A stretch of DNA of 64,000 bases from Allocatelliglobosispora scoriae (GTDB lineage: Bacteria > Actinomycetota > Actinomycetes > Mycobacteriales > Micromonosporaceae): contig NZ_JACHMN010000003.1 of NCBI RefSeq assembly GCF_014204945.1, forward strand, positions 1,922,001-1,986,000, given 5' to 3'. The translations under genes and the position numbers were made by a program. Under the pieces are notes generated by a model that was not told the DNA's origin, made no database searches, and saw only the letters and a list, made by a program, of their open reading frames with translations. Below are positions 2,602 through 24,341 of the stretch, piece by piece; the first letter of the stretch is position 1, and each line of letters begins with the position of its first letter.

Positions 2602-2853
2602 TCAGCGGGAGTGGCGCAGCAGGATCACCGCCAGCTCCGATCCGTGCGGGCCGAGCTGGCTGAACCGCCGGGCGGTTGCGAGCTCGTGGTCGTGGGCGAA
2701 GCCGGAGCGCCCGCAGGCGACCCGCGCCTGCTGCACCTGCTGGGCGAGTTCGAGCCGCTCCCGGATCAGCCTGATCAGTTGCAGGTCGATGCGGTCCAGG
2801 CGGCCCTGCAGGGAGGTGACGAGCTCGGGCTCGGCCACCGTCTCGGATGCCAT
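2602..2853 (-). CDS. small AroQ-fold (chorismate mutase-like) protein (83 aa)
   Basis: Its ATG overlaps the stop of the upstream PhzE-like gene (TGATG), so the two are translationally coupled. The sequence has the first helix typical of AroQ-family enzymes (RLDRIDLQLIRLIRERLELAQQVQQAR, residues about 18-44), and its 83-residue length fits a minimal AroQ domain. The family includes chorismate mutase, isochorismate-pyruvate lyase (PchB) and 4-amino-4-deoxychorismate mutase (PapB). The usual second-helix motif with Lys and PVxDxxRE is not recognisable; the region reads CGRSGFAHDHELATARR, so the reaction may differ or be lost. Coupling to an ADIC-forming enzyme makes a chorismate-derived substrate likely. 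Which one cannot be told from sequence. Confidence 0.7.
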   Translation of the reverse strand: MASETVAEPELVTSLQGRLDRIDLQLIRLIRERLELAQQVQQARVACGRSGFAHDHELATARRFSQLGPHGSELAVILLRHSR

Positions 2854-4724
2854 CAGGGTGCCAGCAGGGTGCCGACGTGGCGCCCGAGCAGGTGCAGGCC
2901 GTCGGCGGAGAGAATGGATTCCGGATGGAACTGGAAGGATCGGAAGTTCGGGCCGTGCATGGCGAAGACCTCCTTGGTCGCCGGGTCGCGGCTGACCATC
3001 ACGGTCCCCAGGCGGTCGGTGTCGGCCTGGGCGACGAATGTGTTGTAGAAACCGACCGTCGCCGTCTCGTCGAAGATCTCGATCGTGCGCTGGCGGCCTT
3101 GCTGCGTGTGTTCGAGTCGGACCAGTGGCAGGCCCAGGTGGTGGCTGAGGATCTGGTGGCCGAGGCACACGGCCAGCAGCGGCCGCTGCGACGCGTAGAT
3201 CTGCGCGGCCAGCGTCCGCAGCCGGGCGATCTTGGGATCGTCCCCGTCGCGTGGGTCACCGGGCCCGGGACCGAGCACGACCAGGTCCCAGCCGTCGGTC
3301 CGGCTCACCTCGCGATAGGTGCGCACGGTCACGTCGTGGCCGAGGTGGCGCAGCTGGACGGCGAACATGTCGGTGAAGGTGTCCTCGGCGTCGATCACGA
3401 GGGTGCGCCAGGTCGGCGGCTTGCGAGCCGGCCGTCGTCCCAGCCAGAACGGCGCCAGGTCCGCGTTGCGTCCCTCCAACTGGGCCTCGATCGCTGCGTC
3501 GACCGCAGGCACGGCCACGGGGGTACGCGCGGCCGCACGCTCGCCCGAGAGCGCGGCGAGCATGCCCGCCACCTTGGCATGGGTCTCCAGGACCTCGGTG
3601 GCCGGATCCGAGTGGCGGACCAGCGTGGCGCCGACGCTCAGCGTGAGGTCGCCGTCGGCGGTGATGTCGGCCGTGCGGATCACGATCGCCGCGTCGAGCC
3701 GGCGATTCGGCTCGACCAGGGCGATGACGCCGCTGTAGTAGCCGCGGCCGGTGGGCTCGCGGCGGTGGATGACCCGGCAGGCGTTCTCCACGGGGCTGCC
3801 GGTGACGGTGGGTGCGAGCAGCGTCTCGCGCAGGATCGCGGGCAGGGGCTGCTTGCTGGTGCCGCTGATGTGGTATTCGGTGTGCGCCAGCCGGGCCATC
3901 TGCCGCAGCCGGGGCCCGATGACGGTGCCGCCCTCGTCGCAGATGCGCGCCATCATCTTGAGTTCCTCGTCGAGCACCATGTAGAGCTCGTCGGTCTCCT
4001 TGCGGTCGTCGAGGAACGCCTGCAGCCCGGCGGGGTCCGGCTCGCCGGCCGGGTACCGGTAGGTCCCGCTGATCGGGTTCATGGTGACCAGGTCGCCGTC
4101 GACGCGCAGGTGGCTCTCCGGCGAGGCGCCGACGAGGGTCCGCCCGCCGAAGCTGACGAGAAACGTCCAGTAGGTGCCGTGCTCCTGGCGCAGCAACCGT
4201 TGGAAAATAGTCAGCGCCGTCGACGGGGAATAATCCGCTAGACATCCGTGATATGAACGCTTGATAACAAAGTTTGAACCTTCTCCGGCGCCGATTTCCT
4301 GGTCGATGATCTCGCGGACGGATGCGGCGTAGGCGGCGTCGGAAATATCGAACTCACCGTCGGCCAGAGACACCTCGGTGTTGGGCATGGCGGCGATGAA
4401 TGAATCAAGAGGAATCGCGATTCGATCAGTGATTTCGATCGTCACGATAGGTTCGCCGTCGTCGTGGCAGGCGTAGCCGCGCTCGGTGATCTGCCGGTAG
4501 GGAAGCAGCACCAGAGCGGCATCGTCGCTCTTCATCGCGGTTTCGAGGGTGTGGCTCTCGACAGGTGTGCCCAGGATGAGCTCGACCGTGTCCGGATCGG
4601 TCTCCGGTCGGTAGAGCAGTGCGCAGGCCGCCGCATCAGGGCTGTCCAATGCGGATGAATGTAGGTTGCGCAGTTGTGAAATCAGGTTGTGCGTCGACAC
4701 CCGGGCGGGCGGTTTAAGTCGCAT
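2853..4724 (-). CDS. phzE: PhzE-like 2-amino-2-deoxyisochorismate (ADIC) synthase, fused synthase and glutamine amidotransferase (623 aa)
   Basis: Chorismate-utilising domain (about 90-400) followed by a class I glutamine amidotransferase domain (about 430-620). The amidotransferase nucleophile is Cys520 (AVCLGHQ), with His600/Glu602 (FQFHPES) completing the triad. GPGPGDP and the overall order match PhzE rather than TrpE/TrpG pairs. PhzE makes ADIC from chorismate and glutamine. A PhzD-like isochorismatase and an EntA/DhbA-like dehydrogenase in the divergent operon would carry ADIC to 3-hydroxyanthranilate, as in caboxamycin and nataxazole pathways. I chose the ATG at 4724 because GGAGGAG sits 8 bases upstream; an earlier TTG at 4757 lacks a ribosome binding site. 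It heads a two-gene operon with the AroQ-like gene. Confidence 0.9.
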   Translation of the reverse strand: MRLKPPARVSTHNLISQLRNLHSSALDSPDAAACALLYRPETDPDTVELILGTPVESHTLETAMKSDDAALVLLPYRQITERGYACHDDGEPIVTIEITDRIAIPLDSFIAAMPNTEVSLADGEFDISDAAYAASVREIIDQEIGAGEGSNFVIKRSYHGCLADYSPSTALTIFQRLLRQEHGTYWTFLVSFGGRTLVGASPESHLRVDGDLVTMNPISGTYRYPAGEPDPAGLQAFLDDRKETDELYMVLDEELKMMARICDEGGTVIGPRLRQMARLAHTEYHISGTSKQPLPAILRETLLAPTVTGSPVENACRVIHRREPTGRGYYSGVIALVEPNRRLDAAIVIRTADITADGDLTLSVGATLVRHSDPATEVLETHAKVAGMLAALSGERAAARTPVAVPAVDAAIEAQLEGRNADLAPFWLGRRPARKPPTWRTLVIDAEDTFTDMFAVQLRHLGHDVTVRTYREVSRTDGWDLVVLGPGPGDPRDGDDPKIARLRTLAAQIYASQRPLLAVCLGHQILSHHLGLPLVRLEHTQQGRQRTIEIFDETATVGFYNTFVAQADTDRLGTVMVSRDPATKEVFAMHGPNFRSFQFHPESILSADGLHLLGRHVGTLLAP

Positions 4725-4900
4725 TGCGTCTAGCTCCTCCCACGTGAACGCTGGCAACTATGGCACCGGAGAAGTGACATCGGCAACTACTCGTCCAATG
4801 CGGACGGCTACTCAATCGAGTAGTGCTGCGGGTAGGGATTCGCTGCTAGCGTCCGAGACCGAACTCGCCGAAACGGGATTTGCGAAAGCGAGGAATTGTC
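4725..4900. promoter_or_regulatory. divergent promoter region of the two core biosynthetic operons
   Basis: This 176-bp interval separates the PhzE-like operon (minus) from the aspartokinase-led operon (plus). It holds three CTACTC half-sites: direct copies at 4788-4793 and 4808-4813 (20 bp apart, about two helical turns), and an inverted copy at 4818-4823. The last two form the dyad CTACTCAATCGAGTAG (4808-4823). This is a good candidate operator for coordinated control of both operons. The binding protein is unknown. Confidence 0.55.
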
Positions 4901-6139
4901 TTGGGCAACTTGGTGCAGAAGTTCGGCGGATCGTCGCTGGGCGACATCGATCTGGTGAGCCGCGCCGCGCGGATCGTCGAGGCGGCCTACCGCCGGGGCG
5001 ACCGCGTGGTCGTGGTCGTGTCCGCCCGCGGCGACACCACCGACGATCTGCTGGCGCTGGCGGAGCAGACCTCACCCGAGCGGCCGGCTCGCGAGATCGA
5101 CCAGCTGCTCGCCACGGGGGAGACCGCGTCGGCGGCGCTGATGGCGCTCGCCCTGCACGCGATCGGCGTCCCGGCGGTCTCCCTGACCGGTGCGCAGGCC
5201 GGCATCACCGCGGCCGGTCCGCACGGTGCGGGCGTGATCGCCGAGGTGGACCCGGCGCCGCTGACGGCGTTGCTGGACCGCGGCAACGTGGCCGTGGTCG
5301 CCGGATTCCAGGGCGTCGACCCGTTCGGCAACGTGCTCACCCTCGGCCGGGGCGGTTCGGACACGACCGCGGTGGCCCTGGCCGCGGGCCTCGCCGCCCG
5401 CTGCGAGATCTACACCGACGTCGAGGGCATCTTCACCGGCGATCCGCGCCTGGTGCCCGATGCCCGGCTGCTGCCCGTGATCACCGCACCGGTGATGGCC
5501 GAGATGGCGTTCGCGGGCGCTCGGGTCATGCACTCGCGTGCCGTGGAGCTGGCCGCTCTGACCAATGTGGAGCTGCACGTGCGCAGCAGCGCCTCGGACG
5601 CGCCCGGCACGACCGTGGCGAGCGGTCCGCAGGAGCTGATGGAGATCCGCGGTGCGGTCATCGCCATCACCCACGACGCACAGGTCGCCCGGGTGCTCAT
5701 CCAGGCACACGCCGACCTGGCGCGGGAGGTGTTCGACATCCTGGCGTCGCTGGGCGTGCCCGCTGATCTGGTGGCGCGCTCGGGCAGCGGCGAGGCGGAG
5801 TTCCGGATGGGATTCACCATGCCCGCCACGGGCAGCGAGCTGGTCCGCACGGCGCTGGAGCGGGCAGCCGCGGCGCACGGCGGCCGGGTCGAGGTCTCGA
5901 CCGACGTCGGCAAGGTGTCGCTGGTCGGCACCGGCATGCTCAACCGCCCCGAGCTCACCGCCCGCATGCTCGCGGTGCTGGCCGGGGCACAGATTCCGAC
6001 CAGCTGGGTGTCGGCCACCCAGCTGCGCACCTCCGTCACCGTGCCGCACGGACGCCTGTCCGAAGCGGTGGTTCTGCTGCACAAGGAGTTCGAGTTGCAA
6101 CGCGACGACTACGACATCGTGGCACTGGTCGCGCCATGA
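4901..6139 (+). CDS. aspartokinase, pathway-dedicated (412 aa)
   Basis: Amino-acid kinase domain (about 1-245) beginning with the family signature KFGGSS, with FTGDPRLVPDA in the aspartate-binding half. Two C-terminal ACT regions (about 260-410) follow. Aspartokinase phosphorylates aspartate, the first step to aspartate-4-semialdehyde, a substrate of the GriI-type aldolase encoded next. A dedicated copy heading this operon would boost that precursor, as in grixazone-type clusters. No semialdehyde dehydrogenase lies in the window, so that step must come from primary metabolism. I set the start at a TTG (4901) with AGGA 6 bases upstream; an alternative TTG at 4880 lacks such a site. The stop overlaps the next ATG (ATGA). 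Confidence 0.92.
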   Translation: MGNLVQKFGGSSLGDIDLVSRAARIVEAAYRRGDRVVVVVSARGDTTDDLLALAEQTSPERPAREIDQLLATGETASAALMALALHAIGVPAVSLTGAQAGITAAGPHGAGVIAEVDPAPLTALLDRGNVAVVAGFQGVDPFGNVLTLGRGGSDTTAVALAAGLAARCEIYTDVEGIFTGDPRLVPDARLLPVITAPVMAEMAFAGARVMHSRAVELAALTNVELHVRSSASDAPGTTVASGPQELMEIRGAVIAITHDAQVARVLIQAHADLAREVFDILASLGVPADLVARSGSGEAEFRMGFTMPATGSELVRTALERAAAAHGGRVEVSTDVGKVSLVGTGMLNRPELTARMLAVLAGAQIPTSWVSATQLRTSVTVPHGRLSEAVVLLHKEFELQRDDYDIVALVAP

Positions 6140-6909
6140 GCGGCCGCGACCTGCGCCTGCGGAGGCTTTTCCGCAACGGCCCGCGCCTGCTGGTGGTCCC
6201 CCTCGACCACGCGGTCACCGACGGTCCGATCCCGACGAGCGGCGGCATCGGTGCGCTCGTCGCCCAGCTGGCCGACAACGGCGCCGACGCCATCGTCCTG
6301 CACAAGGGCGGTGTGGGGCGTATCGACCCGAGTGCCTTCGGCGAGGCGGCCCTGATCGTGCACCTGAGCGCCAGCACCCGTTTCGCGCCCGACCCGGACG
6401 CGAAATACCTGGTCGCCAGCGTCGAGGAGGCGCTGCGCGTCGGTGCCGACGCGGTCAGCGTGCACGTCAACCTGGGCTCGCACGACGAGCGCCAGCAGAT
6501 CGCCGACTTCGCCGCGACCGCCGAGGCCTGCGACCGGTGGGGCCTGCCGCTGCTGGCCATGATCTACCCGCGCGGTCCGCGGATCGACAATCCGCGGGAT
6601 CCGGAGCTGATCGCGCACGCCGCGACGCTCGCCTCGGATCTCGGCGCGGACATCGTCAAGACGCCCTACACCGGCGACGTGCTGACCATGGCCGATGTCG
6701 TGGCCGGCAGTCCGATTCCGCTCATCGTCGCCGGGGGCTCCCGGCTCTCCGGTACGGGTGACGTGCTGTCGCTGGTCGACGACGTGCTCGCCGCCGGAAC
6801 GGCCGGACTGGCGATGGGCCGCAACATCTTCGAGGCTCCCGATCCCGGCGAGCTCACCCGACTCATCGCCCAACAGGTCCACCGTGTACGAGAGGAAGTA
6901 CTGACATGA
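6136..6909 (+). CDS. griI: GriI-like class I aldolase (DhnA family) for 3,4-AHBA formation (257 aa)
   Basis: DeoC/DhnA-family TIM-barrel aldolase. Lys175 in DIVKTPYTG is the expected Schiff-base lysine, and LDHAVTDGP (about 23-31) matches the family's N-terminal active-site segment. Family members include archaeal AroA' and GriI. GriI joins aspartate-4-semialdehyde with dihydroxyacetone phosphate to give a C7 amino keto-sugar phosphate. The flanking aspartokinase and GriH-like cyclase make the GriI role far more likely than a role in primary shikimate metabolism. Both junctions are ATGA overlaps, implying coupled translation. Confidence 0.9.
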   Translation: MSGRDLRLRRLFRNGPRLLVVPLDHAVTDGPIPTSGGIGALVAQLADNGADAIVLHKGGVGRIDPSAFGEAALIVHLSASTRFAPDPDAKYLVASVEEALRVGADAVSVHVNLGSHDERQQIADFAATAEACDRWGLPLLAMIYPRGPRIDNPRDPELIAHAATLASDLGADIVKTPYTGDVLTMADVVAGSPIPLIVAGGSRLSGTGDVLSLVDDVLAAGTAGLAMGRNIFEAPDPGELTRLIAQQVHRVREEVLT

Positions 6910-8006
6910 AGGTGTGCTGGCTGGATGTCCGCAATCTGCCGGACGGAGTACGCGAGGCCGTCATCGAGGAGGCGATCCATCAGCGGATCGACGCGATCGT
7001 GGCGAGCAACGCGGAGCACCTGACCGCCATCCCGCCGACCGTGCGCCGGGTCCTGTGGCCCCGCGACGGCCGGCTGCCCGAGGAGCTCGGCGGCGTCGAC
7101 GTGGTGCTCGTCGACGCGACGACCGGTGTCCCGGCCACCTACGGCAGCCGGACCGACGTGCAGTACGGCCAGTTCGTCGAGGTGACCGACGCGACGAGCC
7201 TGGAGCGGGCCAACACCGCCGCGCGGACGCAGCCGTGGTCGGTCATCCGGTTCCGGGACCCCACCAAGATCCCGCTGGAGATCGTGCTGGCGGCGGCGTA
7301 CAAGGCCGACGGTGTCATCATCACCGAGGTCGCCGACCTCGAGGAGGCCGAGATCGTCTTCGGTGTGCTCGAGCACGGCTCCGACGGTGTGCTGCTGGCG
7401 CCGAAGGGCGTCGGCGAGGCGACGAAGCTGCGCGCGGTCGCCACCGGCGGCATCGGCGAGCTGGCACTCGTCGAGCTCGAGGTGACCGGCACCGAGCACA
7501 TCGGCATGGGCGAGCGGGCCTGCGTCGACACCTGCTCGCACTTCCGCGAGGACGAGGGCATCCTCGTCGGCTCGCACTCCAAGGGCATGATCCTGTGCTG
7601 CAGCGAGACGCACCCGCTGCCCTACATGCCGACGCGGCCGTTCCGGGTCAACGCCGGTGCGATCCACTCCTACACCATGTCGGCGGAGGGGCGCACGCAC
7701 TACCTCAGCGAGCTCAAGGCCGGCAGCAAGGTGCAGGCCGTGGACGCCAAGGGCCAGACCCGGCTGGTGACGGTCGGCCGGGTGAAGATGGAGACTCGGC
7801 CGCTGCTCTCCATCGACGCCGTCTCCCCGGACGGGCGGCACGTCAACATCATCGTGCAGGACGACTGGCACGTGCGCGTCCTGGGCCCCGGCGGTGTCGT
7901 GCTCAACACGACCGAGCTGCGCCCCGGCGACAAGGTGCTGGGCTATCTGCCGACCGAGGACCGCCACGTCGGCTACCCGATCGACGAGTTCTGCATCGAA
8001 AGCTGA
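6906..8006 (+). CDS. griH: GriH-like 3-amino-4-hydroxybenzoate synthase (DHQ synthase II family) (366 aa)
   Basis: Full-length member of the 3-dehydroquinate synthase II family, recognised by VIRFRDPTKIPLE (about 108-120), ERACVDTCSHFREDEGILVGS (about 200-220) and RPFRVNAGAIHSY (about 242-254). Archaeal members make 3-dehydroquinate. GriH and NspH instead cyclise and aromatise the GriI product to 3-amino-4-hydroxybenzoate. Gene order aspartokinase-GriI-GriH supports the second role. It overlaps the aldolase gene by 4 bases and is followed by the amidohydrolase after only 5 bases. Confidence 0.9.
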   Translation: MKVCWLDVRNLPDGVREAVIEEAIHQRIDAIVASNAEHLTAIPPTVRRVLWPRDGRLPEELGGVDVVLVDATTGVPATYGSRTDVQYGQFVEVTDATSLERANTAARTQPWSVIRFRDPTKIPLEIVLAAAYKADGVIITEVADLEEAEIVFGVLEHGSDGVLLAPKGVGEATKLRAVATGGIGELALVELEVTGTEHIGMGERACVDTCSHFREDEGILVGSHSKGMILCCSETHPLPYMPTRPFRVNAGAIHSYTMSAEGRTHYLSELKAGSKVQAVDAKGQTRLVTVGRVKMETRPLLSIDAVSPDGRHVNIIVQDDWHVRVLGPGGVVLNTTELRPGDKVLGYLPTEDRHVGYPIDEFCIES

Positions 8007-8011
8007 CGAGG

Positions 8012-8770
8012 ATGACCCGGATCATCGATTTCCATGCCCGGCTGGGGGCGGGACCGGCAGCACTGTCCCGCCTCTACGCCGCGATGGACCGCCACGGCAT
8101 CAATGCCGCTGCCGTGGCGGCCGGCGGCATCCTGCCGCCGGAGGTGCTGTCGCGACAACTGATCGACGGCAGCCACGTCACGACGGAGCCGGACAACGAC
8201 GCGGTCCTCGCCGCGGCGGAGGTCTCGGCCGGGCGGCTGATCCCGGTCTACTTCGCCAACCCGCACACGGGTACCGGTGACTACACGGCTCGGGCCGGGC
8301 GGTTCCGCGGCCTGGAGCTGTCGCCGGCCGTGCACGGCGTACCGCTGACCGATCCGATCACCGACGACTTCGTGCAGGTCGCCTGGCGCAACGGGCACTC
8401 GGTCTACATCGTGTGCATCATCCGGCCGGGATGCGGTGTCGCGGACCTGGCCGACCTCGCCAAACGCCATCCGGAGACCAATTTCGTACTCGGACACGGC
8501 GGCGCGAGCGCCATCGACTTCTACGGCGTCAACCTGATCGAACCCCACCCCAACATCCTGTTCGAGACCTCGGGCGGCTACTCCAGCGTGCTCGGCTACG
8601 CGCTGCGCACGCTGGGCCCGGGCCGGATCCTGTTCGGCACCGAGCACCCGCTGCAGGATCCCGGACTGGAACTGGCCAAGTTCGCCGCGCTGGGGCTGGC
8701 CGAGGCGGACTGGCACCAGATCGCCGAGGCCAACGCGGTGCGACTGCTGAAAGAAGGCGACCATGAGTGA
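8012..8770 (+). CDS. amidohydrolase-superfamily enzyme, candidate benzoxazole-forming cyclase (252 aa)
   Basis: Compact amidohydrolase-2-type TIM barrel with an N-terminal metal motif DFH (Asp6, His8), a second histidine in LGHGG (His162) and FGTEHPLQDP near the C-terminus. Where the family often has an Asp (G-S/T-D), this protein has Glu211 followed by His212. In caboxamycin, nataxazole, A33853 and closoxazole biosynthesis an amidohydrolase relative closes the oxazole ring of ortho-aminophenol acids activated by an adenylating ligase. Here the ligase is the next gene and overlaps this one by 8 bases. Benzoxazole formation is therefore the favoured role. Decarboxylation or simple hydrolysis are alternatives. 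Confidence 0.8.
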   Translation: MTRIIDFHARLGAGPAALSRLYAAMDRHGINAAAVAAGGILPPEVLSRQLIDGSHVTTEPDNDAVLAAAEVSAGRLIPVYFANPHTGTGDYTARAGRFRGLELSPAVHGVPLTDPITDDFVQVAWRNGHSVYIVCIIRPGCGVADLADLAKRHPETNFVLGHGGASAIDFYGVNLIEPHPNILFETSGGYSSVLGYALRTLGPGRILFGTEHPLQDPGLELAKFAALGLAEADWHQIAEANAVRLLKEGDHE

Positions 8771-10052
8771 GGCGAAACCGCTCGGCGAGTGGGGCGATGC
8801 CGACGAGATCCGCGCGATCCAGGAGAAACAACTGCCGCAGGTGTTCGCCTGGGCGCAGCGCTCCCCGTTCTACCAGGCCCGGCTGCGCGGTGGCGAGACG
8901 CTGCGGGACCTGGCGCCGACCACGAAACAGGACCTGCGCGACGCGTACCCGTTCGGGCTGCTCGCCGTGGAGAAGTCGCGGCTCGCGACATACCACGAGT
9001 CCAGCGGGACGGCGGGTGCCGCCACGGCCTCCTACTACACGGAGGAGGACTGGGTCGACCTCGCCGAGCGGTACGCCCGCAAGTGGATCCCGATCGGCCC
9101 GGAGGACACGTTCTTCGTCCGGACGCCGTACGCGTTGATGATCACCGGGCACCTGGCGCACCGGGCGGCCCGCTCGCACGGCGCCACCGTGGTGCCCGGC
9201 GACAACCGCTCGCTGGCGATGCCGTACTCCCGGGTGGTGCGCCTGCTGCACGACCTGGAGGTGAGCATCACCTGGTCGCTGCCGACCGAGACCTTGATCT
9301 GGGCGGAGGCGGCCCGGCACGCGGGCTGGCGGCCGGAGCGGGACTTCCCGGCGCTGCGGGCGTTCTACGTCGGCGGCGAGCCGCTGACCGCCGCCCGGCG
9401 GGCCCGCATCAGCGAGGTCTGGGGTGGCGTGCCGGTGGTGGAGGAGTTCGGCTCCACCGAGACCGGGAGCCTGGCCGGCGAGTGCCCGCACGGCCAGATG
9501 CACTTCTGGGCGGACCGGGCCATCCCGGAGGTCCTCGATCCGCAGACCGGCGAGATCAGCGCCGAGGGCGCCGGGCACCTGATCGTCACGCCGCTGTTCC
9601 GCGAGGCGATGCCGCTGCTGCGCTACAACCTGGAGGACAACGTCGAGCTGTCCTATGCACCCTGCGCCTGCGGCTGGTCGCTGCCGACGATCCGGGTCCT
9701 GGGCCGGGCGGCGTTCGGCTACTCGGTCGGCACGGCCCGGATCAACCAGCACGACACCGAGGAGCTCGTCTTCGGCCTCCCCCTCGAGTACGGCGTGGCG
9801 TTCTGGCGGGGCCGCGCGCTGCCGGACCGGCTCCGCATCGAGATCGAGGTCACCGCCGAGCACCGGCAGGCGGCGTGTGCCGCGCTCGCCGAGGCCGTGC
9901 AGGCCCGGTTCGGCGCACCCTGCGAGGTGACCGGCATCGACCCGGGCGGGCTGCTGCCGCACCGGGTCCTCACCGCCAGCCAGGATGTCCTCAAGCCGCG
10001 CAGCCTGTTCGGCCCGGACGAGGACTGGGACAAGGCGATCATCTATGGGTGA
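8763..10052 (+). CDS. PaaK-like AMP-dependent acyl ligase (429 aa)
   Basis: Phenylacetate-CoA-ligase-type ANL enzyme. The P-loop-like motif ESSGTAGAA (about 79-87) and the AMP-binding EEFGSTETG (about 223-231) are intact, and the length is normal for PaaK relatives. It should adenylate an aromatic carboxylate, probably 3,4-AHBA or 3-HAA, and either make the CoA ester or transfer the acyl group directly to the aminophenol of a second monomer. Such ligases (NatL2, BomJ type) work with an amidohydrolase in benzoxazole assembly, and that partner is the immediately upstream overlapping gene. The acceptor cannot be deduced. The stop lies inside the next gene (8-base overlap). Confidence 0.87.
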   Translation: MSEAKPLGEWGDADEIRAIQEKQLPQVFAWAQRSPFYQARLRGGETLRDLAPTTKQDLRDAYPFGLLAVEKSRLATYHESSGTAGAATASYYTEEDWVDLAERYARKWIPIGPEDTFFVRTPYALMITGHLAHRAARSHGATVVPGDNRSLAMPYSRVVRLLHDLEVSITWSLPTETLIWAEAARHAGWRPERDFPALRAFYVGGEPLTAARRARISEVWGGVPVVEEFGSTETGSLAGECPHGQMHFWADRAIPEVLDPQTGEISAEGAGHLIVTPLFREAMPLLRYNLEDNVELSYAPCACGWSLPTIRVLGRAAFGYSVGTARINQHDTEELVFGLPLEYGVAFWRGRALPDRLRIEIEVTAEHRQAACAALAEAVQARFGAPCEVTGIDPGGLLPHRVLTASQDVLKPRSLFGPDEDWDKAIIYG

Positions 10053-11178
10053 GCAGCCGGTCGGCATCGTCGGCGCGGGCATCGCCGGGCTGACCCTCGC
10101 CGTGGCCCTGCAGCGGCGGGGCCTGAGCTATCACGTCTTCGAGCAGGCGCCCCGGTTCGGGGAGGTGGGCGCGGGCATCCAGCTCGCCCCGAACGCGACC
10201 CGGCTGCTCTACCGCCTGGGCCTCGGCGACGCGCTCGACGCGGTCGCCGTCCGGCCGCACGCCATCGAGCTGCGCGACGGGCGCACCGGCACGGTGATGG
10301 CGCGCACCGAACTCGGTGAGCGCTGCGTCGCCGAGTACGGCGCGCCCTACCTCGCCGTGCACCGCGCCGACCTGCATCAGATCCTGGCGGGTGCGGTGGA
10401 TCCGGCCGCCGTCACGCTGGGCGTGCGGTGCACGGGGATCGACCAGGACGGCGAGGTGGTCACGGCGGCGTTCGACAACGGCCGCCGGGACCGGTTCGCC
10501 GTCCTGGCCGGCGCCGACGGCGTGCGGTCGGCGGTGCGGTCCACCTTCCTGCACGACGCGCCCCGCTACAGCGGGCACACGATCTTCCGCGGTCTCATCC
10601 CGGCCGAGCGCCTGCCGCAGCTCGCGGCGGAGCCCCGGATCGTGCTGTGGCTCGGTCCCGGCCAGCACGCCGTGGCCTATCCGGTGGCGGGCGGCAAGCT
10701 GATCAGCTTCGGCGCCACCATGCCCGAGGCCGAGTGGGGCGCCGAGTCGTGGTCCGAGCCGGGCTCGCTGTCCGGGCTGCGCGAGGCCTACGAAGGCTGG
10801 GACGACGGGCTGCGCGACCTGCTGTCCCAGGCCGACGAGGTGAGCCGGTGGGCGCTGCACGATCGCGACCCGATCATCGGCTGGACCCACGGCACCGCCA
10901 CGCTGATCGGCGACGCGGCGCATCCGATGCTGCCGTTCGTCGCGCAGGGCGCCAACCAGGCCGTCGAGGACGCCTATGTCCTCGCGGGCTGCCTGGCGCA
11001 GGCGCCGGTCCCGGAGGCGCTGCGCCGCTACGAGCGGTTGCGCCGCCCGCGTACCGACGAGGTCCAGGAGATCTCCCGGCGCAACGCGACCGCGCTGCAC
11101 GACGGCTCGCGCCCCGATCCCGCCCAGCAGCAGCGCCAGCAACGGTGGCTGTTCGGCTACGACCCAGAGGAAGGCTGA
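10045..11178 (+). CDS. FAD-dependent aromatic hydroxylase, salicylate hydroxylase-like (377 aa)
   Basis: Group A flavoprotein monooxygenase with the Rossmann GxGxxG motif at the N-terminus (GAGIAGLTLA), the mid-protein GADGVRSAVR and the second FAD motif LIGDAAHPMLPFVAQGANQAVED. The pattern and the 377-residue length fit salicylate or 3-hydroxybenzoate hydroxylases. As part of the core operon it may hydroxylate an aminohydroxybenzoate or remove its carboxylate by decarboxylative hydroxylation. Neither can be chosen from sequence. The start is an ATG inside the ligase gene; the next gene begins 5 bases after its stop. Confidence 0.85.
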   Translation: MGEQPVGIVGAGIAGLTLAVALQRRGLSYHVFEQAPRFGEVGAGIQLAPNATRLLYRLGLGDALDAVAVRPHAIELRDGRTGTVMARTELGERCVAEYGAPYLAVHRADLHQILAGAVDPAAVTLGVRCTGIDQDGEVVTAAFDNGRRDRFAVLAGADGVRSAVRSTFLHDAPRYSGHTIFRGLIPAERLPQLAAEPRIVLWLGPGQHAVAYPVAGGKLISFGATMPEAEWGAESWSEPGSLSGLREAYEGWDDGLRDLLSQADEVSRWALHDRDPIIGWTHGTATLIGDAAHPMLPFVAQGANQAVEDAYVLAGCLAQAPVPEALRRYERLRRPRTDEVQEISRRNATALHDGSRPDPAQQQRQQRWLFGYDPEEG

Positions 11179-11183
11179 GCTCC

Positions 11184-11954
11184 ATGCATACACAGATCGC
11201 CCTGGTCACTGGCGCCGCATCCGGCATCGGTGCGGCGGTGGCCGCGGAGTTGGCCCAGCAGGGCGTGGTGGTCGCGGCCGCGGACACCAACGAGTCCGCG
11301 CTGGCCGAGCAGGTCGAAAAGATCACCAGCAACGGGTACGCCGCACGCGCGTACTCGATCGACGTCCGAGATCCGGTCGCCGTCCACGAGGCGATAAACG
11401 CCATCGAACGAGACCTCGGCCCGATCGGCATCCTGGTCAACGTGGCCGGCGTTTTGCGTACCGCGCCGATCCTGGAGCTGACCGACGACGACTGGCAGAC
11501 GGTCTTCTCGGTCAACACCGTCGGCGTCTTCAACATCAGTCAGGCGGTCGCCCGGGGCATGGTCGCCCGCCGTTCCGGCTGCGTGGTGACGGTCGGGTCC
11601 AACTCCGCCGCCGTGCCCCGGATGCACATGGCGGCCTACTGCGCAGCGAAGGCGGCCTCCACCATGTTCACCAAGTGCCTCGGTCTGGAGCTGGCCGAGT
11701 ACGGCATCCGCTGCAACATCGTCGCGCCGGGCTCCACGGACACGCCGATGCTGCGCTCGATGTGGGCCGACGGCTACGGCCGCCAGTCGGTGCTCGACGG
11801 CGCCGCCGACCGCTACCGCATCGGCATCCCGCTGCGCAAGCTGGCCGAGCCCGCCGACGTGGCGCACGCGGTGGCGTTCCTCGCCTCCGACCAGGCCAGC
11901 CACATCACGATGCACGAGCTGTGCGTCGACGGCGGCGCGGCGCTGGGGGCATGA
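11184..11954 (+). CDS. SDR dehydrogenase, EntA/DhbA-like; probable dihydro-3-hydroxyanthranilate dehydrogenase (256 aa)
   Basis: Classical short-chain dehydrogenase: TGxxxGxG cofactor motif at residues 9-16, catalytic Tyr152 and Lys156, and [14 protein letters not shown], which resembles EntA/DhbA (2,3-dihydro-2,3-dihydroxybenzoate dehydrogenase). With the PhzD-like isochorismatase next door it most likely oxidises trans-2,3-dihydro-3-hydroxyanthranilate to 3-hydroxyanthranilate using NAD+. EntA-like oxidation of the hydroxy analogue is the alternative, but no isochorismate synthase is visible. Its stop overlaps the next ATG (ATGA). Confidence 0.88.
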
Positions 11955-12598
11955 CGATGGGAACACTGCCGATCGATGTCTACCCGATGCCGACCGAGAG
12001 CGAGCTGCCCGCCAGCACACCACAGTGGAAGCCGGACCCGCGGCGGGCGGCCCTGCTCGTGCACGACATGCAGCAGTATTTCGTGGACATGTTCCCCGCC
12101 GGGCAGTCACCCGTGACGGAGCTGGTCGCCAACGCGGCCCGGCTGCGTGCTGCGGCGGCGGATCTCGGGCTGCCGGTGTTCTATACCGCGCAGCCCGGCC
12201 GGATGAGCAGGGCCGACCGGGGCCTGCTGCTCGACGTCTGGGGCGAGGGGATGGAGGGCACCCCGCAGCAGCGCCAGATCGTGCCGGAGCTCTCGCCGCG
12301 CGACGGCGATGTGGTGCTCACCAAGTGGCGCTACAGCGCCTACCTGCGGACGGATTTCGCCGAGCGGCTCGCCGCCACCGGTCGTGACCAGCTGATCGTC
12401 TGCGGTGTCTACGGGCATGTCGGCATCCTCATGACGGCCTGCGACGCGTTCTGCCGCGATGTGGAGGTGTTCCTCGCCGCCGACGCGATCGGGGACTTCA
12501 CGGCGGCGCACCATCGCTCGACTTTGGACTACGTCGCCGCTCGCTGCGGCGTGGTCGCCTCCACCCGCCAGTTGCTGGAGGCCATTTCAGCACCGTAG
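11951..12598 (+). CDS. phzD: PhzD-like isochorismatase (215 aa)
   Basis: Isochorismatase-family hydrolase of PhzD length and pattern. Catalytic Asp39 (LLVHDMQQYF), Lys125 (LTKWRYSAY) and the GVYGHVGILMT segment are present. PhzD removes pyruvate from ADIC to give trans-2,3-dihydro-3-hydroxyanthranilic acid. The substrate would come from the PhzE-like enzyme encoded divergently, and the product would pass to the preceding dehydrogenase. No other phenazine genes (PhzF, PhzA/B, PhzG) are seen, so the pathway probably ends at 3-hydroxyanthranilate. This is the last gene of the operon; a strong hairpin follows. Confidence 0.93.
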   Translation: MTMGTLPIDVYPMPTESELPASTPQWKPDPRRAALLVHDMQQYFVDMFPAGQSPVTELVANAARLRAAAADLGLPVFYTAQPGRMSRADRGLLLDVWGEGMEGTPQQRQIVPELSPRDGDVVLTKWRYSAYLRTDFAERLAATGRDQLIVCGVYGHVGILMTACDAFCRDVEVFLAADAIGDFTAAHHRSTLDYVAARCGVVASTRQLLEAISAP

Positions 12599-13183: not shown

Positions 13184-14770
13184 TCAGGTGACGATGCCGC
13201 AGACTATGTCCAGCAGCGCCTCCTCGGTGACCTCGCCAGGATCGCCGTGCCAGGCCACGTGCTGGTCGGGCCGGATCAGGGTCAGCGGTGCGCCGATCAC
13301 CTTCCGGCAGCCGTCGTCGTCGACGGTCACGTGTCGGATCGGCACGCCGCGCCGTTGCGCGGCCGCCACGAGGGCTGCCCCCGCCGCGTCCGGCGTCTGG
13401 TCCAGCACCGCGAAACCGGCCCCCAGCCGGTCGAACAGGTGCTCACCATCGCCGAGGAACAGGCCGGGCACGCGCATCCCCGGCCAGACCTCCGGCGTGA
13501 CCCTCCGCCAGTCCCACGCCGGCTCCGGCCCGCCGTCCGGCACGACGATCGGCGAGGTGTAGCGGGCGCCGAAGTGGATGCCCAGGTTGTCGATCTGGTA
13601 GGCGTCCTGGTCGAGGAACCCGGCGAGCTGCGCGCGGGTCGCGCCCACGGCCGCCAGCGCGGGGAAGCGCCGCCACACCTCCAGCAGGTTGAAGGAGAGC
13701 TCCCGGTTGATCAGTGCCACCGGCCGCCGCTCCGTCTCGTACGCCGTGAGCAGCCCCGCGCCGCCCCACCCCTGGACCACGCCGGCGAGCTTCCAGGCGA
13801 GGTCGACGGCGTCGGCGAGACCGGTGTTCGCCCCGTGTCCGCCGGTCGGGTAGAACTGGTGGGCCGCGTCCCCGGCGAGGATGACCCGTCCGCTGCGGTA
13901 GGTGGTCGCGACGCCGAGCCGGCCCTCCCAGTGCGCGACCGCCATGACCTCGTCGAACCGGATCGGGGCGCCGAGGCGCTGCTGCACGACGGCGAGCGGG
14001 TCCGTCGGCGGCTCTCCCTCGTAGGGGAAGGTCGCGGTCCAGACGGCCTCCTCGTCGCGGGAGACGAGCATGACCCCGCCCGTGTGGATGCCGAGGAAGT
14101 AGCGCCCGTGTGCCCGCAGGAGCGGGTCGTCACTGCGAAAGTAGACATCGCAGTGCTGCGAGGTGGGTCCGATCAGGTCGACGCCGATGTCGGCCGCGTT
14201 GCGGACCGCACTGCCCGCGCCGTCGCAGCCGATCGCGTACGCCGCGCGCAGCTCGTGCTGCTGTCCGTCCGGATCGGTCAGCCGCGCGATGACAACATTG
14301 TCATCCTGCGCCAGCGACCGGAACGTCCAGCCCTCCCGGAGCTCGATGAGGGGATGGTCGCGGACCGCGTCCCGCAGGATCTCCTCGAGGATCGACCCGG
14401 TGAGCCGCTGGTAGGGCTCCGCGGGCATGGTGCCGTCGTTGACCCGGCGGATCGTGTCGCGCTGCTGGTCGACGGACGGGTAGTTCCACACCGCCAGGGG
14501 CGGTTCGGCGAGGCTCGTATACCAGTGGAAGGTGAAGTCGAAGCGTGGCGGAACGCCCCGCTCGCGGATCGCCGGACCGACTCCGAGCCGGTGCAGCAGC
14601 TCCATGCTGCGGGCGTTGACGAAGTCCATCTTGGGATACGGCGTGGCCGCAACAGCACGATCGACCACCAGCGACGGTACGCCGAACTGTGCGAGCTGCA
14701 GCGCCAGCGTCGCGCCGACCGGTCCGCAGCCGACGATCAGGATCGGCTCGGTGGGAGTCGGGGCGGTCAC
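13184..14770 (-). CDS. FAD-dependent monooxygenase, PheA/TfdB type (528 aa)
   Basis: Group A flavin hydroxylase with GxGxxG at Gly14-Gly19, a central CDGAGSAVR motif and the FAD motif RVILAGDAAHQFYPTGGHGANTGLADAVDLAWKL. A C-terminal thioredoxin-like extension (about 400-528) ends in LIRPDQHVAWHG, as in phenol hydroxylase and polyketide hydroxylase relatives. It is clearly related to the 558-aa monooxygenase at 19133, and an ancestral duplication is likely. The GTG start overlaps the stop of a short upstream reading frame (GTGA). It probably hydroxylates a cluster intermediate or the finished scaffold. Confidence 0.9.
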   Translation of the reverse strand: MTAPTPTEPILIVGCGPVGATLALQLAQFGVPSLVVDRAVAATPYPKMDFVNARSMELLHRLGVGPAIRERGVPPRFDFTFHWYTSLAEPPLAVWNYPSVDQQRDTIRRVNDGTMPAEPYQRLTGSILEEILRDAVRDHPLIELREGWTFRSLAQDDNVVIARLTDPDGQQHELRAAYAIGCDGAGSAVRNAADIGVDLIGPTSQHCDVYFRSDDPLLRAHGRYFLGIHTGGVMLVSRDEEAVWTATFPYEGEPPTDPLAVVQQRLGAPIRFDEVMAVAHWEGRLGVATTYRSGRVILAGDAAHQFYPTGGHGANTGLADAVDLAWKLAGVVQGWGGAGLLTAYETERRPVALINRELSFNLLEVWRRFPALAAVGATRAQLAGFLDQDAYQIDNLGIHFGARYTSPIVVPDGGPEPAWDWRRVTPEVWPGMRVPGLFLGDGEHLFDRLGAGFAVLDQTPDAAGAALVAAAQRRGVPIRHVTVDDDGCRKVIGAPLTLIRPDQHVAWHGDPGEVTEEALLDIVCGIVT

Positions 14771-18068: not shown

Positions 18069-18671
18069 TCAGTGGGTGGTGAAGACCCGCTCGTACTCCA
18101 GGCGCGGCTGGCGGTCGAACCATGCGTCCGGGCCCGGCTTGCCGAGGTTGATGACGAGGAAGGCCTGGTGCCGGGTCGGGTCGAAGAACTCCTCGGTGAT
18201 CTTGTCCGCGTAGAAGCCGGTCATCGGCCCCGCCGCCAGACCGACCGCGCGGGCGCCGAGGATGAAGTAGCCGGCCTGCAGGGTCGCGTTGAGCTGGGCC
18301 GCCTCGATCCGCACGTCCTCCTCGGAGAAGAAGACGTCCTTCGCCGCCGGGAAGATCGGGAACAGCTCGGGCAGCAGCTCGTGGAACCGGACATCCGCGG
18401 CGAGAATGGCGACCAGCGGTGCGGCCGAGGTCTTGCCCTGGTTGCCGTCCCACATCAACGGGATCAGGCGGCTCTTGGCCTCTTCCGACCGGATCAACGC
18501 CACCCGCAGCGGCTGCTGGTTGAACGATGTCGGCGCCCACTTCACGAGGTCATAGAGCGCGGCGATCTGCTCGTCGCTGACTGGCTCGTCGGTGAACGTG
18601 TTCGCCGTACGCGCCTCACGGAACAGCAGGTCCTGTGCCCGCTCGTCGATCAGTACGTGGTTTGACGACAT
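18069..18671 (-). CDS. nitroreductase-family FMN oxidoreductase, RutE/HadB-like (200 aa)
   Basis: Compact nitroreductase-fold protein. Characteristic segments are FREARTANTFTDEPVSDEQI, the flavin-contacting WAPTSFNQQPLRVALIRS and AAGPMTGFYADKITEEFF. It is closest in pattern to RutE-type (malonic semialdehyde reductase/nitroreductase) proteins. In a cluster handling aminophenols it could reduce a quinone-imine or nitro/nitroso intermediate or act on an enone; this is inference. It is transcribed alone from a long upstream region. A ribosome binding site (AAGGAAG) precedes the ATG. Confidence 0.88.
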   Translation of the reverse strand: MSSNHVLIDERAQDLLFREARTANTFTDEPVSDEQIAALYDLVKWAPTSFNQQPLRVALIRSEEAKSRLIPLMWDGNQGKTSAAPLVAILAADVRFHELLPELFPIFPAAKDVFFSEEDVRIEAAQLNATLQAGYFILGARAVGLAAGPMTGFYADKITEEFFDPTRHQAFLVINLGKPGPDAWFDRQPRLEYERVFTTH

Positions 18672-19132: not shown

Positions 19133-20809
19133 ATGGACAACGTCCCCGTAGTGGTGGTCGGCGCTGGCCCGGTCGGAATGATGGCGGCGCTGGAGCTGGC
19201 CCACCATGGGGTGGAGTGCGTGCTCGCCGAGCAGAACGCCGGACCCACCCTGCATCCGAAGATGGAGTTCACCAACCCCAGGACCATGGAGCACCACGCC
19301 AGGCTGGGACTCGCGGATGACATCCGCAAGGCGGGCGTGCCCGCGGGCTACCCCTTCGACGTCCTCTGGTCGACCGGCCTGGACCAGGACGGCGAGCGGC
19401 TCGCAGTGTGGCATCAGCCCTCGGTCGAGCAGAAGTGGCAGGAGATCAGGGAGCGCAACGACGGCAGCCAGCCCAGCCAGCCCTACCAGCGGATCTCTCA
19501 AGCCGACCTCGAGCCGGTGCTGCTCGACCACTGCCGTCGCCATCCACTGATCGATGTCCGCCACCACTGGCGGTTCGACTCGCTGCAGCAGGACGCCGAC
19601 GGCGTCACCAGCACGTTCCAGGATCTGACGAACGGCACTCCCCGGACGGTGCGCTCCCAGTACATCGTCGGCTGTGACGGCGCCGGCAGCGCGGTGCGCC
19701 AGGCCGTCGGGATCCCGCTGAGCGGCGGCGGCATCGCCGACGGCGAGGGCGGCGGCATCCGCGACCTGCCGGTCGTCTTCTCCGTGACCTTCCGCACCAC
19801 CGACACCGAGCGCCTGTTCCGGCACGGCTACTTCTGGCACCACTTCACCAACCGCTACGTGCTGATCTCGCTCGACGAGGCCGGGACCTGGTCCTTCCAC
19901 GCCCTGCACCAGTCCGACTTCGACCCGCCGCCGGCCGACCCCGCGGCGTGGATCCGCTCCCTGCTCAACGTCGACCTGGATATCGAGAAGATCCTCGTGA
20001 CGTCGCGCTGGAAACCGCAGTACCTGATCGCCGACAGCTTCCGGTCCGGCCGGGTGCTGCTCGCCGGTGACTCCGCGCACCAGATGTTCCCCGCGGGCAG
20101 TCATGGCATGAACACCGGCGCGGGCGACGCGGTGGACCTGGGCTGGAAGCTGGCGGCGCTGGTCAACGGTTACGGCGGGCCGACGCTGCTCGACAGCTAT
20201 GAGATCGAGCGACGGCCGGTCGGGCTGCGCAACATGGCGATGTCGCGACAGCACCTCGACGTGCACTTCGAGCACATGCGGCTGCGGGGTGAAGGGGGAC
20301 CGTTGGCCCCGCTGGGCGAGTTCCTCTCCGCACAGCCCGGCGAGAACACCTACGAGGGCATCTACCTCGACTACCGGTACGCGGGGTCTCCGATCGTCTG
20401 TGCCGACGGGACCAGCGAGCCGGAGTCCGACCAGCTGCGGTATGTCCCGAGCACCTGGCCGGGTTCACGCCCGCCGAGCGTGCTGCTGGCGGACGGCAGC
20501 CAGCTCTTCGATCACTTCGGACCCGAGTTCACGCTGCTGGATCTGGCGGGTGACGGCAGGGCCGACGCTCTGCTGACCGCTGCGGCCGACCGGGGCCTGC
20601 CGGTCCGCCACGTCGTGATCCGGGAGGACCGGGTGCGCGAGCTATGGGAGTGCGACCTGGCGCTGTTGCGCCCGGACCAGCATGTTGCCTGGCGGGGGGA
20701 GCGCGTCCCCGCCGACCCGGTCGAGATCGTCGACCGGGTCCGAGGCGCGGCGAATGAGAACACGACGCCGCTAGCGGCCGAGGAAAGGTCGAGCCAAGGG
20801 CACCGTTAG
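19133..20809 (+). CDS. FAD-dependent monooxygenase, PheA/TfdB type (558 aa)
   Basis: Group A flavin hydroxylase: GxGxxG at Gly10-Gly15, the central CDGAGSAVR motif, the FAD motif RVLLAGDSAHQMFPAGSHGMNTGAGDAVDLGWKL, and a C-terminal thioredoxin-like domain ending LLRPDQHVAWRGE. It is paralogous to the 528-aa enzyme at 13184. It probably hydroxylates an aromatic intermediate of the cluster. It is followed after 59 bases by the exporter gene, so the two likely form an operon. Its promoter block and residues 35-51 have a second, degenerate copy upstream of the cupin gene. Confidence 0.92.
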   Translation: MDNVPVVVVGAGPVGMMAALELAHHGVECVLAEQNAGPTLHPKMEFTNPRTMEHHARLGLADDIRKAGVPAGYPFDVLWSTGLDQDGERLAVWHQPSVEQKWQEIRERNDGSQPSQPYQRISQADLEPVLLDHCRRHPLIDVRHHWRFDSLQQDADGVTSTFQDLTNGTPRTVRSQYIVGCDGAGSAVRQAVGIPLSGGGIADGEGGGIRDLPVVFSVTFRTTDTERLFRHGYFWHHFTNRYVLISLDEAGTWSFHALHQSDFDPPPADPAAWIRSLLNVDLDIEKILVTSRWKPQYLIADSFRSGRVLLAGDSAHQMFPAGSHGMNTGAGDAVDLGWKLAALVNGYGGPTLLDSYEIERRPVGLRNMAMSRQHLDVHFEHMRLRGEGGPLAPLGEFLSAQPGENTYEGIYLDYRYAGSPIVCADGTSEPESDQLRYVPSTWPGSRPPSVLLADGSQLFDHFGPEFTLLDLAGDGRADALLTAAADRGLPVRHVVIREDRVRELWECDLALLRPDQHVAWRGERVPADPVEIVDRVRGAANENTTPLAAEERSSQGHR

Positions 20810-22477: not shown

Positions 22478-23158
22478 TCAGCTGGAGATGCGGGCCGCGA
22501 TGCCGTCGAGGAGGAAGTCGAGGCCGGTGCGGAAGGTCTGGTCGGCGTCCAGATGGGTGCCGTCGCGAATGGCCGAGGCGAGCGCGGGGAATCGGCCGGT
22601 GGCGAAGGTCCGCTCCAGATAGGGCCCGTGGGCGGCCTGCCACTGTCGCTTGTCCATGCCGGTCGCCCGCTCGGCGCGCAGCTCGGCGATCTCCCGCCGC
22701 ACCGCGCCGACGACGTACGCATCGACCGCGGCGATCGCCGGGACGGCGGTGTCCACGTCGACGCCGCCGAGCGCGGCCACCGCGGCCTCCATCCTGGCCA
22801 GCGCGTGCGGCCCGAGCTGCGGCCGCCCGCCGATCAGGTCGGCGAACCATTCGTGCCGGTGGGCGGCGTGCCGGGTGGCCTCGGCGAGCGAGCGCAACGC
22901 CTCCCGCCAGCCGTCCCCGGCCGGGCGGATCTCGGCGTGGACGGCGTCGACCACCAGGTCGAGCAGTTCGTCCTTGGTGGCGATGTAGCCGTAGAGCCGC
23001 ATCGGCCCGACGCCCAGCACGGCGGCGACCTTGCGCAGCGACACCGCTTCCAGCCCGTCCGCGTCGGCCAGCAGGATCGCCGCGCTGACGATCCGGTCCC
23101 GGCTCAGGGGGGCCGGCACCGGTCGATCCGGCGGCTCCGGTCGCTCCCACACCAACAT
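22478..23158 (-). CDS. TetR-family repressor (226 aa)
   Basis: The N-terminal helix-turn-helix (RDRIVSAAILLADADGLEAVSLRKVAAVLGVGPMRLYGYIATKDELLD, about 20-67) is typical of TetR proteins with a TetR_C ligand domain. It is divergent from a TetX-like monooxygenase gene, a very common pairing in which the repressor controls the flavoprotein. Candidate operator half-sites lie between them. Whether the pair belongs to the biosynthetic pathway or is a neighbouring detoxification unit is unclear. Confidence 0.9.
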   Translation of the reverse strand: MLVWERPEPPDRPVPAPLSRDRIVSAAILLADADGLEAVSLRKVAAVLGVGPMRLYGYIATKDELLDLVVDAVHAEIRPAGDGWREALRSLAEATRHAAHRHEWFADLIGGRPQLGPHALARMEAAVAALGGVDVDTAVPAIAAVDAYVVGAVRREIAELRAERATGMDKRQWQAAHGPYLERTFATGRFPALASAIRDGTHLDADQTFRTGLDFLLDGIAARISS

Positions 23159-23167
23159 GCCGCTGAC

Positions 23168-23206
23168 GATACATCCCCTAGCGCGATACAGTGTATCAAT
23201 CGATAC
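23168..23206. promoter_or_regulatory. candidate TetR operator region
   Basis: Three GATAC half-sites lie between the divergent TetR and monooxygenase genes: GATACA at 23168, the near-palindrome GATACAGTGTATC at 23185-23197, and GATAC at 23202. The arrangement fits autoregulation and control of the flavoprotein gene. Confidence 0.6.
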
Positions 23207-23225
23207 GGTGATTTGGAGGAAAGCC

Positions 23226-24341
23226 ATGACCATCGCCATCGTCGGGGGCGGCCTCGGCGGCCTGGCTCTCGCCCGCGTGCTGCATCTGAACGGGATCGAA
23301 GCCGTCGTCCATGAACGCGAAGCGTCGCGTGACACGCGGGTGCAGGGCGGCATGCTGGACCTGCATGCGAAGACCGGACAGCGGGCGTTGCGCCTGGCCG
23401 GCCTGATCGACCAGTTCCACGCGATAGCCCGGTCCGAGGGCCAGGACCTGCAGCTTCTCGAACCGGACGGCACAGTGCTGCTGCGGCAGGACACGCCCGA
23501 CGGCGCCCCCCTCGACCGCCCCGAGGTCGACCGTGCCGATCTGCGCAACCTGCTGCTGGACTCTCTCCCGGAGCACGCGGTGCGCTGGGGGCATGGTGTC
23601 GAACGCGCCGACGGCGGCCTGCTGCGCTTCGCCGACGGCAGCAGCGCGCCATATGACCTGCTGGTCGGCGCCGATGGCGCGAACTCCCGGGTCCGCCCGC
23701 TGCTCACCGACGCCCGCCCGGTGCACACCGGCCAGAACGCCGTCGAGCTGTGCATTCCTGATATCGATCGCACCCACCCCGACCTCGCGGCGATGGTGGG
23801 GCGCGGCAACTACTGGGTGCTCGGCGACGGACAGTCCCTGTCGGCGCAGCGCAATGGCGACGGTCGCGTCCGCGTCTACCTGAGTTTCTATCGCACCGCC
23901 GAGGACTGGTTCGCCACCAGCGGGATCCCGTTCGACGATCCGGCTGTCGCCCGGGCACGGCTGATCGAGCTCTTCAACGGCTGGGACCCGCGGTTCATCG
24001 CGCTGATCGCCGCCTGCGAGGACATGATCGTGCCCCGGTCGATCACCACTCTGCCGGTCGGCCTGACCTGGCCGTCCACACCGGGCGTCACGCTGCTGGG
24101 GGATGCCGCGCACCTGATGCCGCCGGTGGGACAGGGCGCCAACATGGCGCTGCTCGACGGCGTCCTGCTCGGCCTGGCACTGGCCGAGCACCCGGACGAT
24201 TTTCCGGCCGCCGTCCGCGAGTACGAACAGGAGATGTTCGAGCGCACCAGCGCCGCGGGCCGGATGTCCGTGCGGATCCAGGAGATGCTGACGGCGCCGG
24301 ACGCCAGTCGTCAGATGCTCGCGTTCTTCCGACCCCGCTGA
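23226..24341 (+). CDS. FAD-dependent monooxygenase, TetX-like (371 aa)
   Basis: Flavoprotein with GGGLGGLALA at the N-terminus, RVQGGMLDLH, a central GADGANSRVR and the FAD motif VTLLGDAAHLMPPVGQGANMAL. The length and motifs fit the TetX-type subgroup, which hydroxylates small aromatic or polycyclic compounds, sometimes as resistance enzymes. The ATG has GGAGGA 6 bases upstream. It is probably repressed by the adjacent TetR protein. It may tailor the cluster product or inactivate a foreign compound. Confidence 0.88.
   Translation: MTIAIVGGGLGGLALARVLHLNGIEAVVHEREASRDTRVQGGMLDLHAKTGQRALRLAGLIDQFHAIARSEGQDLQLLEPDGTVLLRQDTPDGAPLDRPEVDRADLRNLLLDSLPEHAVRWGHGVERADGGLLRFADGSSAPYDLLVGADGANSRVRPLLTDARPVHTGQNAVELCIPDIDRTHPDLAAMVGRGNYWVLGDGQSLSAQRNGDGRVRVYLSFYRTAEDWFATSGIPFDDPAVARARLIELFNGWDPRFIALIAACEDMIVPRSITTLPVGLTWPSTPGVTLLGDAAHLMPPVGQGANMALLDGVLLGLALAEHPDDFPAAVREYEQEMFERTSAAGRMSVRIQEMLTAPDASRQMLAFFRPR

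Follow-up and report, generated by a model that had tools for sequence, protein, structure and literature searches.

Which product is assembled by an amidohydrolase (AMH) and a PaaK-like ligase (LIG) that are encoded as an overlapping pair among supply genes for two different aminophenol acids? This question is raised by a locus of Allocatelliglobosispora scoriae within the 64,000-nucleotide stretch of DNA analysed here, referred to as the window. The answer favoured, at somewhat better than even confidence, is that LIG and AMH form a benzoxazole from unlike monomers, with 3-HAA as the donor and 3,4-AHBA, or the product of the flavin hydroxylase FMO1, as the acceptor.

AMH extends from an ATG at 8012 to a stop codon at 8768-8770 and LIG from an ATG at 8763 to a stop codon at 10050-10052, which bears out the 8-base overlap (8763-8770) given in a preliminary description of the locus; likewise, the FMO1 start (ATG 10045) overlaps the end of LIG by 8 bases. 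The aspartate kinase, the GriI- and GriH-like enzymes, AMH, LIG, FMO1, the SDR and the isochorismatase are encoded in one tight forward block with the PhzE-like gene divergently upstream (Table 1). The earlier placement of the pair between the 3,4-AHBA and 3-HAA genes holds, with the refinement that FMO1 intervenes between LIG and the 3-HAA genes for SDR and isochorismatase.

Table 1. Features of the locus with their positions in the window and the basis of their assignment.
Feature	Position	Strand	Basis
PhzE-like 2-amino-2-deoxyisochorismate synthase, 3-HAA supply	2853..4757	-	PDB 3r74, 556 bits (phmmer)
Aspartate kinase	4880..6139	+	ORF, named from its translation
DhnA-type aldolase, GriI/BagB-like, first step to 3,4-AHBA	6136..6909	+	NCBIfam PRK07226, 308 bits (cut-off 241)
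3,4-AHBA synthase, GriH/BagC-like, DHQ synthase II family	6906..8006	+	NCBIfam PRK02290.1-3, 565 bits (cut-off 375)
AMH: Amidohydro_2-type amidohydrolase, predicted benzoxazole cyclase, R10/E102/V134 subclass	8012..8770	+	252 aa; Pfam PF04909, 56 bits
Codons for FGTEHP (F208-P213), Glu211 in the beta8 metal-ligand position	8633..8650	+	Sequence, alignments
LIG: NatL2/AjiA1/BagE-type PaaK-like ligase, predicted aryl ester-forming	8763..10052	+	429 aa
FMO1: flavin hydroxylase related to decarboxylative hydroxylases	10045..11178	+	phmmer
SDR: 2,3-dihydro-dihydroxybenzoate/DHHA-type dehydrogenase, 3-HAA supply	11190..11954	+	NCBIfam TIGR04316, 362 bits (cut-off 300)
Isochorismatase, PhzD-like, 3-HAA supply	11957..12598	+	Best PDB match PhzD 1nf9, 237 bits (phmmer); Pfam PF00857

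Regarding the 3,4-AHBA supply, the aldolase and the synthase scored 364 bits (cut-off 500) and 572 bits (cut-off 750) against the more specific NCBIfam models BagB/FevI and BagC/FevH, thus staying under both cut-offs. The aspartate kinase, a homologue of which is kept in 28 of 34 related loci, probably supplies aspartate semialdehyde for 3,4-AHBA. The PhzE-like protein of the 3-HAA supply features Chorismate_bind and GATase domains (Pfam), and the PDB yielded a single match for it at E<1e-30, namely 3r74, a PhzE entered by its depositors under a generic name; an anthranilate synthase was thereby ruled out. Directly downstream of the PhzE-like gene, an 82-aa chorismate mutase-like ORF is located on the minus strand (2605-2850; Pfam CM_2 at the cut-off), whose product would compete for chorismate. 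Besides, the genome has another PhzE-like gene (G000:C2:1529733-1531487) with 49% identity to the first, which suggests a further ADIC-derived pathway, e.g., for a phenazine. At 13184-14770, 18069-18671, 19133-20809, 23031-24341, 24435-25487 and 25576-26121, the window also encodes additional flavin hydroxylases together with a nitroreductase, an O-methyltransferase and a cupin. The O-methyltransferase, an MFS transporter and FMO3 share 69-81% identity with their counterparts in S. globisporus and a further genome (G689), so that a tailoring set travels with the core.

LIG had been predicted to act in benzoxazole assembly, and its NatL2 family membership was established with 555 bits to NatL2 (6siw, residues 2-428) next to 546 bits to AjiA1 (6wuq, residues 7-428; both phmmer). 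The NatL2 zinc ligands C248, H254, C308 and C310 are kept, E235 and R156 are retained together with K418 of the exchanged C-terminal extension, and judged by its sequence LIG clearly belongs to the NatL2-type ester-forming ligases. The score and these features rule out a plain PaaK CoA ligase, and a bagremycin synthetase in the strict sense is ruled out by the 590 bits to the BagE/FevW model (NCBIfam NF041217), which miss the curated cut-off of 800. The bagremycin and ferroverdin systems (BagE/FevW) share the ligase family and the 3,4-AHBA genes with the locus, but in the two bagremycin-type loci surveyed only 3,4-AHBA genes were present, with neither an amidohydrolase nor 3-HAA genes found. 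Among the ligases surveyed in Streptomyces and relatives, two (L098, L099) are partnered by a NatAM homologue and feature the GG211-212 pocket of AMH-type ligases, which suggests that the cyclase partner was swapped within the ligase family. Two further loci (L106, L107) encode NatL2-family ligases with no NatAM, AMH or precursor genes found nearby.

Aryl esters are formed by NatL2, ClxA and PfxC (PMC7204872, PMC12519233, PMC12118335). By the same route, LIG would adenylate one aminophenol acid and transfer the acyl group to the phenol of a second one, resulting in an unstable aryl ester. In the AMH step, the neighbouring amine would attack the ester carbonyl and the benzoxazole ring would be closed under elimination of water. 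NatL2/NatAM were shown to take such an ester route (PMC7204872), and the same was inferred for PfxC/PfxB (PMC12118335). The likeliest inputs would be 3-HAA as the acyl donor and 3,4-AHBA, or the FMO1 product, as the aminophenol acceptor; with 3,4-AHBA itself, 2-(2-amino-3-hydroxyphenyl)benzoxazole-5-carboxylate would result, a compound that combines the logic of A33853/nataxazole with that of closoxazole. For the present pair, we infer the ester step, the ring closure and the monomer roles, next to family assignments, conserved linkage and residue replacements that were computed.

The predicted cyclase does not group with NatAM and BomN. At E<=1, phmmer gave no match of AMH to NatAM (6sj0), and a NatAM homologue was found neither in the source genome nor at any AMH locus, so that this relationship is ruled out; the NatAM homologue of L098 scored 610 bits against the same structure. 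The nataxazole, A33853 and microechmycin systems (NatL2-NatAM, BomJ-BomN, MichE-MichA) resemble the locus in ligase family and 3-HAA route, but their cyclases are of the ~500-aa NatAM type and AMH is an Amidohydro_2 protein of ~250 aa; moreover, the AMH block adds 3,4-AHBA genes and its LIG pocket differs (N155, GG211-212, S243). NCBIfam yielded no match for AMH, and among plasmids only distant relatives of AMH, LIG and the L108 AMH were found. In the phylogenetic tree, AMH forms a group with the amidohydrolases of two closoxazole-like Streptomyces loci (L108, L109; 37% identity) and the one of L114, separate from the other Amidohydro_2 proteins (support 98/91). L108 (5028-12508) and L109 combine 3,4-AHBA genes and an HxH-type AMH with three PaaK-like ligases, the main one being closer to NatL2/AjiA1 than to ClxA, and L114 comprises 3,4-AHBA genes, an AMH and one ligase. 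Through the gene content of L108 and L109, we infer a kinship of AMH to ClxD and PfxB.

The AF2 model of AMH (pLDDT 93.6) features an amidohydrolase barrel, whose best fold matches in the PDB (Foldseek) included decarboxylases, hydrolases and hydratases at ~15% identity, among them gamma-resorcylate, 5-carboxyvanillate and 2,3-dihydroxybenzoate decarboxylases. In Amidohydro_2 decarboxylases, the metal is bound by (E/H)xH, a beta5 His and a beta8 Asp. AMH resembles the COG2159/Amidohydro_2 aromatic decarboxylases, e.g., 2,6-dihydroxybenzoate decarboxylase, in its model fold (TM 0.67-0.74 by query length), but this ligand set is lost, with the second His replaced by Arg, the beta5 His by Val and the Asp by Glu. 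As for a clustering with decarboxylases, which the preliminary description held to speak against a cyclase, decarboxylases are among the best fold matches but AMH does not keep their metal ligands, and the tree comprises no characterised decarboxylase. With regard to these fold neighbours, and to bagremycin-type ligase loci that work without an amidohydrolase, AMH could act as a decarboxylase or ester hydrolase or be catalytically dead, with LIG releasing a bagremycin-like ester or amide. This is quite improbable, as AMH lacks the second beta1 His and the beta5 His, yet its residues are strongly conserved, and the strict pairing with an ester-forming ligase as well as the kinship to closoxazole-like amidohydrolases better fits a cyclase.

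The loss extends to the canonical amidohydrolase site (HxH on beta1, Lys on beta4, His on beta5, His on beta6, Asp on beta8), at whose positions AMH has H8-x-R10, E102, V134, H162 and E211. Residues were surveyed in 61 aligned AMHs at positions 8, 10, 102, 104, 106, 134, 162 and 211, which in the AF2 model lie on or just past beta1, beta4, beta5, beta6 and beta8. The set H, R, E, S, A, V, H, E was found in 56 of them, to which L121 (partial) and L128 (Ala134) are added as R10-type members, and the set H, H, K, A, G, H, H, E in L108, L109 and L114, the H10 side of the contrast thus consisting of three sequences only. In the R10 type, three canonical positions are replaced, i.e., HxH by HxR, the beta4 Lys by Glu and the beta5 His by Val. 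The Glu of FGTEHP had been proposed to mark the cyclase subgroup; Glu211 is indeed invariant (61/61), but it is common to the R10 and H10 sets and so marks a wider group, position 211 being Asp in nine, Asn in one and Glu in one of 11 distant Amidohydro_2 proteins used as the outgroup. It is R10/E102/V134, rather than Glu211, that marks the subgroup of AMH, and what sets this enzyme apart most is the remodelling of its metal site, not the Glu alone. In the tree, the R10 sequences form a clade (support 96/92; 98/89 when L114 is included) that leaves the H10 sequences outside. This topology, together with HxH, Lys and His in several outgroup proteins, marks the R10 set as derived. The loss of a single ligand is also seen in other Amidohydro_2 proteins. 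Genomes of one genus (g46; L004, L006, L009 and other loci) feature several Amidohydro_2 copies, with up to 6 matches per genome, and some of these have altered metal-site residues with Arg at the beta6 His position. As H8, H162 and E211 are kept but R10, E102 and V134 replace His, Lys and His, the metal site of AMH is predicted to be either rebuilt, e.g., from H8/E102/H162/E211, or absent. It is conceivable, though rather doubtful, that a widespread benzoxazole cyclase without the canonical metal centre arose here from a closoxazole-type cyclase as identical monomers gave way to unlike ones.

R10-type AMHs occur in at least 58 actinomycete genomes (57 relatives beyond the AMH of the window), and the homologues of AMH and LIG keep their gene order across many actinomycete genera, which argues against a chance pairing. 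Scanning the AMH alignment against ~85,000 species genomes yielded 23 orthologous loci and one distant locus (L061), all from actinomycetes, and LIG adjoins or is near AMH in all 23 orthologous loci of this AMH-only scan. The neighbourhood survey covered 34 R10-type loci besides the source locus: LIG was present in 34, GriI and GriH in 33, FMO1 in 33 and NatAM in none, and within the fetched stretch SDR was present in 30, isochorismatase in 24 and PhzE in 23, the gaps in these counts being partly due to contig ends and flank limits. Accordingly, 3-HAA genes were found in 30 of the 34 within the fetched flanks and were absent there in four; in two of the four loci without SDR, PhzE is located ~16 kb away, and this distance in two members weakens the L044 group as a counter-example lacking 3-HAA genes. 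NatAM-type loci comprise a NatAM homologue (6/6) and only 3-HAA genes, and no AMH.

The setting of ClxD/PfxB, i.e., 3,4-AHBA genes and a PaaK-like ligase beside the amidohydrolase, recurs in 33 of the 34 R10-type loci. The closoxazole systems (ClxA/ClxD; PfxC/PfxB) further resemble the AMH block in an ester-forming ligase and a cyclase of low similarity to NatAM. Nevertheless, the AMH block differs by its single NatL2-type ligase, the extra 3-HAA genes and FMO1, and by HxR, Glu and Val at the HxH, Lys and His positions. Two units of 3,4-AHBA could instead be joined into a benzoxazole, as for closoxazole, with 3-HAA used elsewhere, e.g., as a third unit or for a separate product; the grouping of AMH with amidohydrolases of clusters with 3,4-AHBA genes only would agree with this. 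The alternative is nonetheless improbable: linked 3-HAA genes track the R10 site, being found in most R10-type loci and in none of the three H10-type loci, the LIG donor pocket (E235, S243) is closer to NatL2 than to ClxA (Y218, N226), and a second ligase was not seen among the cluster genes examined, leaving no obvious attachment of 3-HAA. The dual precursor supply thus tracks the R10-type AMH. Likewise, position 155 of the ligase tracks the cyclase type, being Asn in 58/58 aligned AMH-paired ligases, Ala or Ser in NatAM-paired ligases and Cys in the bagremycin type. Both patterns support the hybrid benzoxazole from 3,4-AHBA and 3-HAA that was proposed at the outset, a proposal partly supported by the presence of both monomer pathways beside the pair in nearly every related locus.

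Donor and acceptor roles are assigned tentatively from a few pocket residues. Position 155 aligns with K140 of ClxA, for which a modelled contact to the acceptor carboxylate was described (PMC12519233); PDB 9s3l was taken as ClxA because K140, Y218, T222 and N226 printed there fall at matching positions. The pattern at position 155 and the kinship of AMH to 3,4-AHBA-only clusters weakly indicate 3,4-AHBA as the acceptor, contrary to a reverse hybrid, 2-(3-amino-4-hydroxyphenyl)benzoxazole-4-carboxylate, for which 3,4-AHBA would serve as the donor and 3-HAA as the acceptor. This reversal is unlikely, even though the bagremycin-type members of this ligase family have been proposed to take 3,4-AHBA as the acid (PMC6692506) and R10 could hold a carboxylate near the reacting amine.

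With 3-HAA as the favoured donor, the acceptor may be altered ahead of coupling by FMO1, whose best PDB matches (phmmer) included tropone 2-monooxygenase (273 bits), 6-hydroxynicotinate 3-monooxygenase (225 bits) and vanillate 1-hydroxylase (213 bits). As a sub-case of the main model, FMO1 would first turn 3,4-AHBA into 2-aminohydroquinone by decarboxylative hydroxylation, LIG would esterify the latter with 3-HAA, and AMH would close a 5-hydroxybenzoxazole without the acceptor carboxylate. This sequence of steps is possible but not the expected one. Several of the top FMO1 matches hydroxylate para-OH acids, 3,4-AHBA has a para-OH that is no longer free once the ring is closed, and FMO1 is nearly as conserved as AMH and LIG. 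On the other hand, the substrate of FMO1 is not fixed by sequence alone, and LIG keeps R156, the acceptor-carboxylate grip in NatL2, although bagremycin-type ligases have R156 too.

In the literature covered, outside which lie subscription papers including the original closoxazole paper, no description of the gene pair or its product was found, and the papers on crexazone, mycemycin and nocarbenzoxazole contain no matching gene pair. The R10-type AMH group is widespread and apparently uncharacterised. Within the family of the source organism, AMH is present in 46 of 301 genomes, and in the loci read LIG is located beside AMH, in nearly all together with 3,4-AHBA genes; the size of this orphan family makes the product worth finding. 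If the favoured reading is true, many actinomycetes would use one compact block to combine two different aminophenol acids into a benzoxazole scaffold that has apparently not been reported before. This would also broaden enzymatic access to benzoxazoles, which serve as a drug scaffold. Moreover, one mechanistic question would become open to experiment, namely the means by which a cyclase of the amidohydrolase fold achieves ring closure although three of the five canonical metal-site positions, unchanged in its nearest relatives, are replaced.
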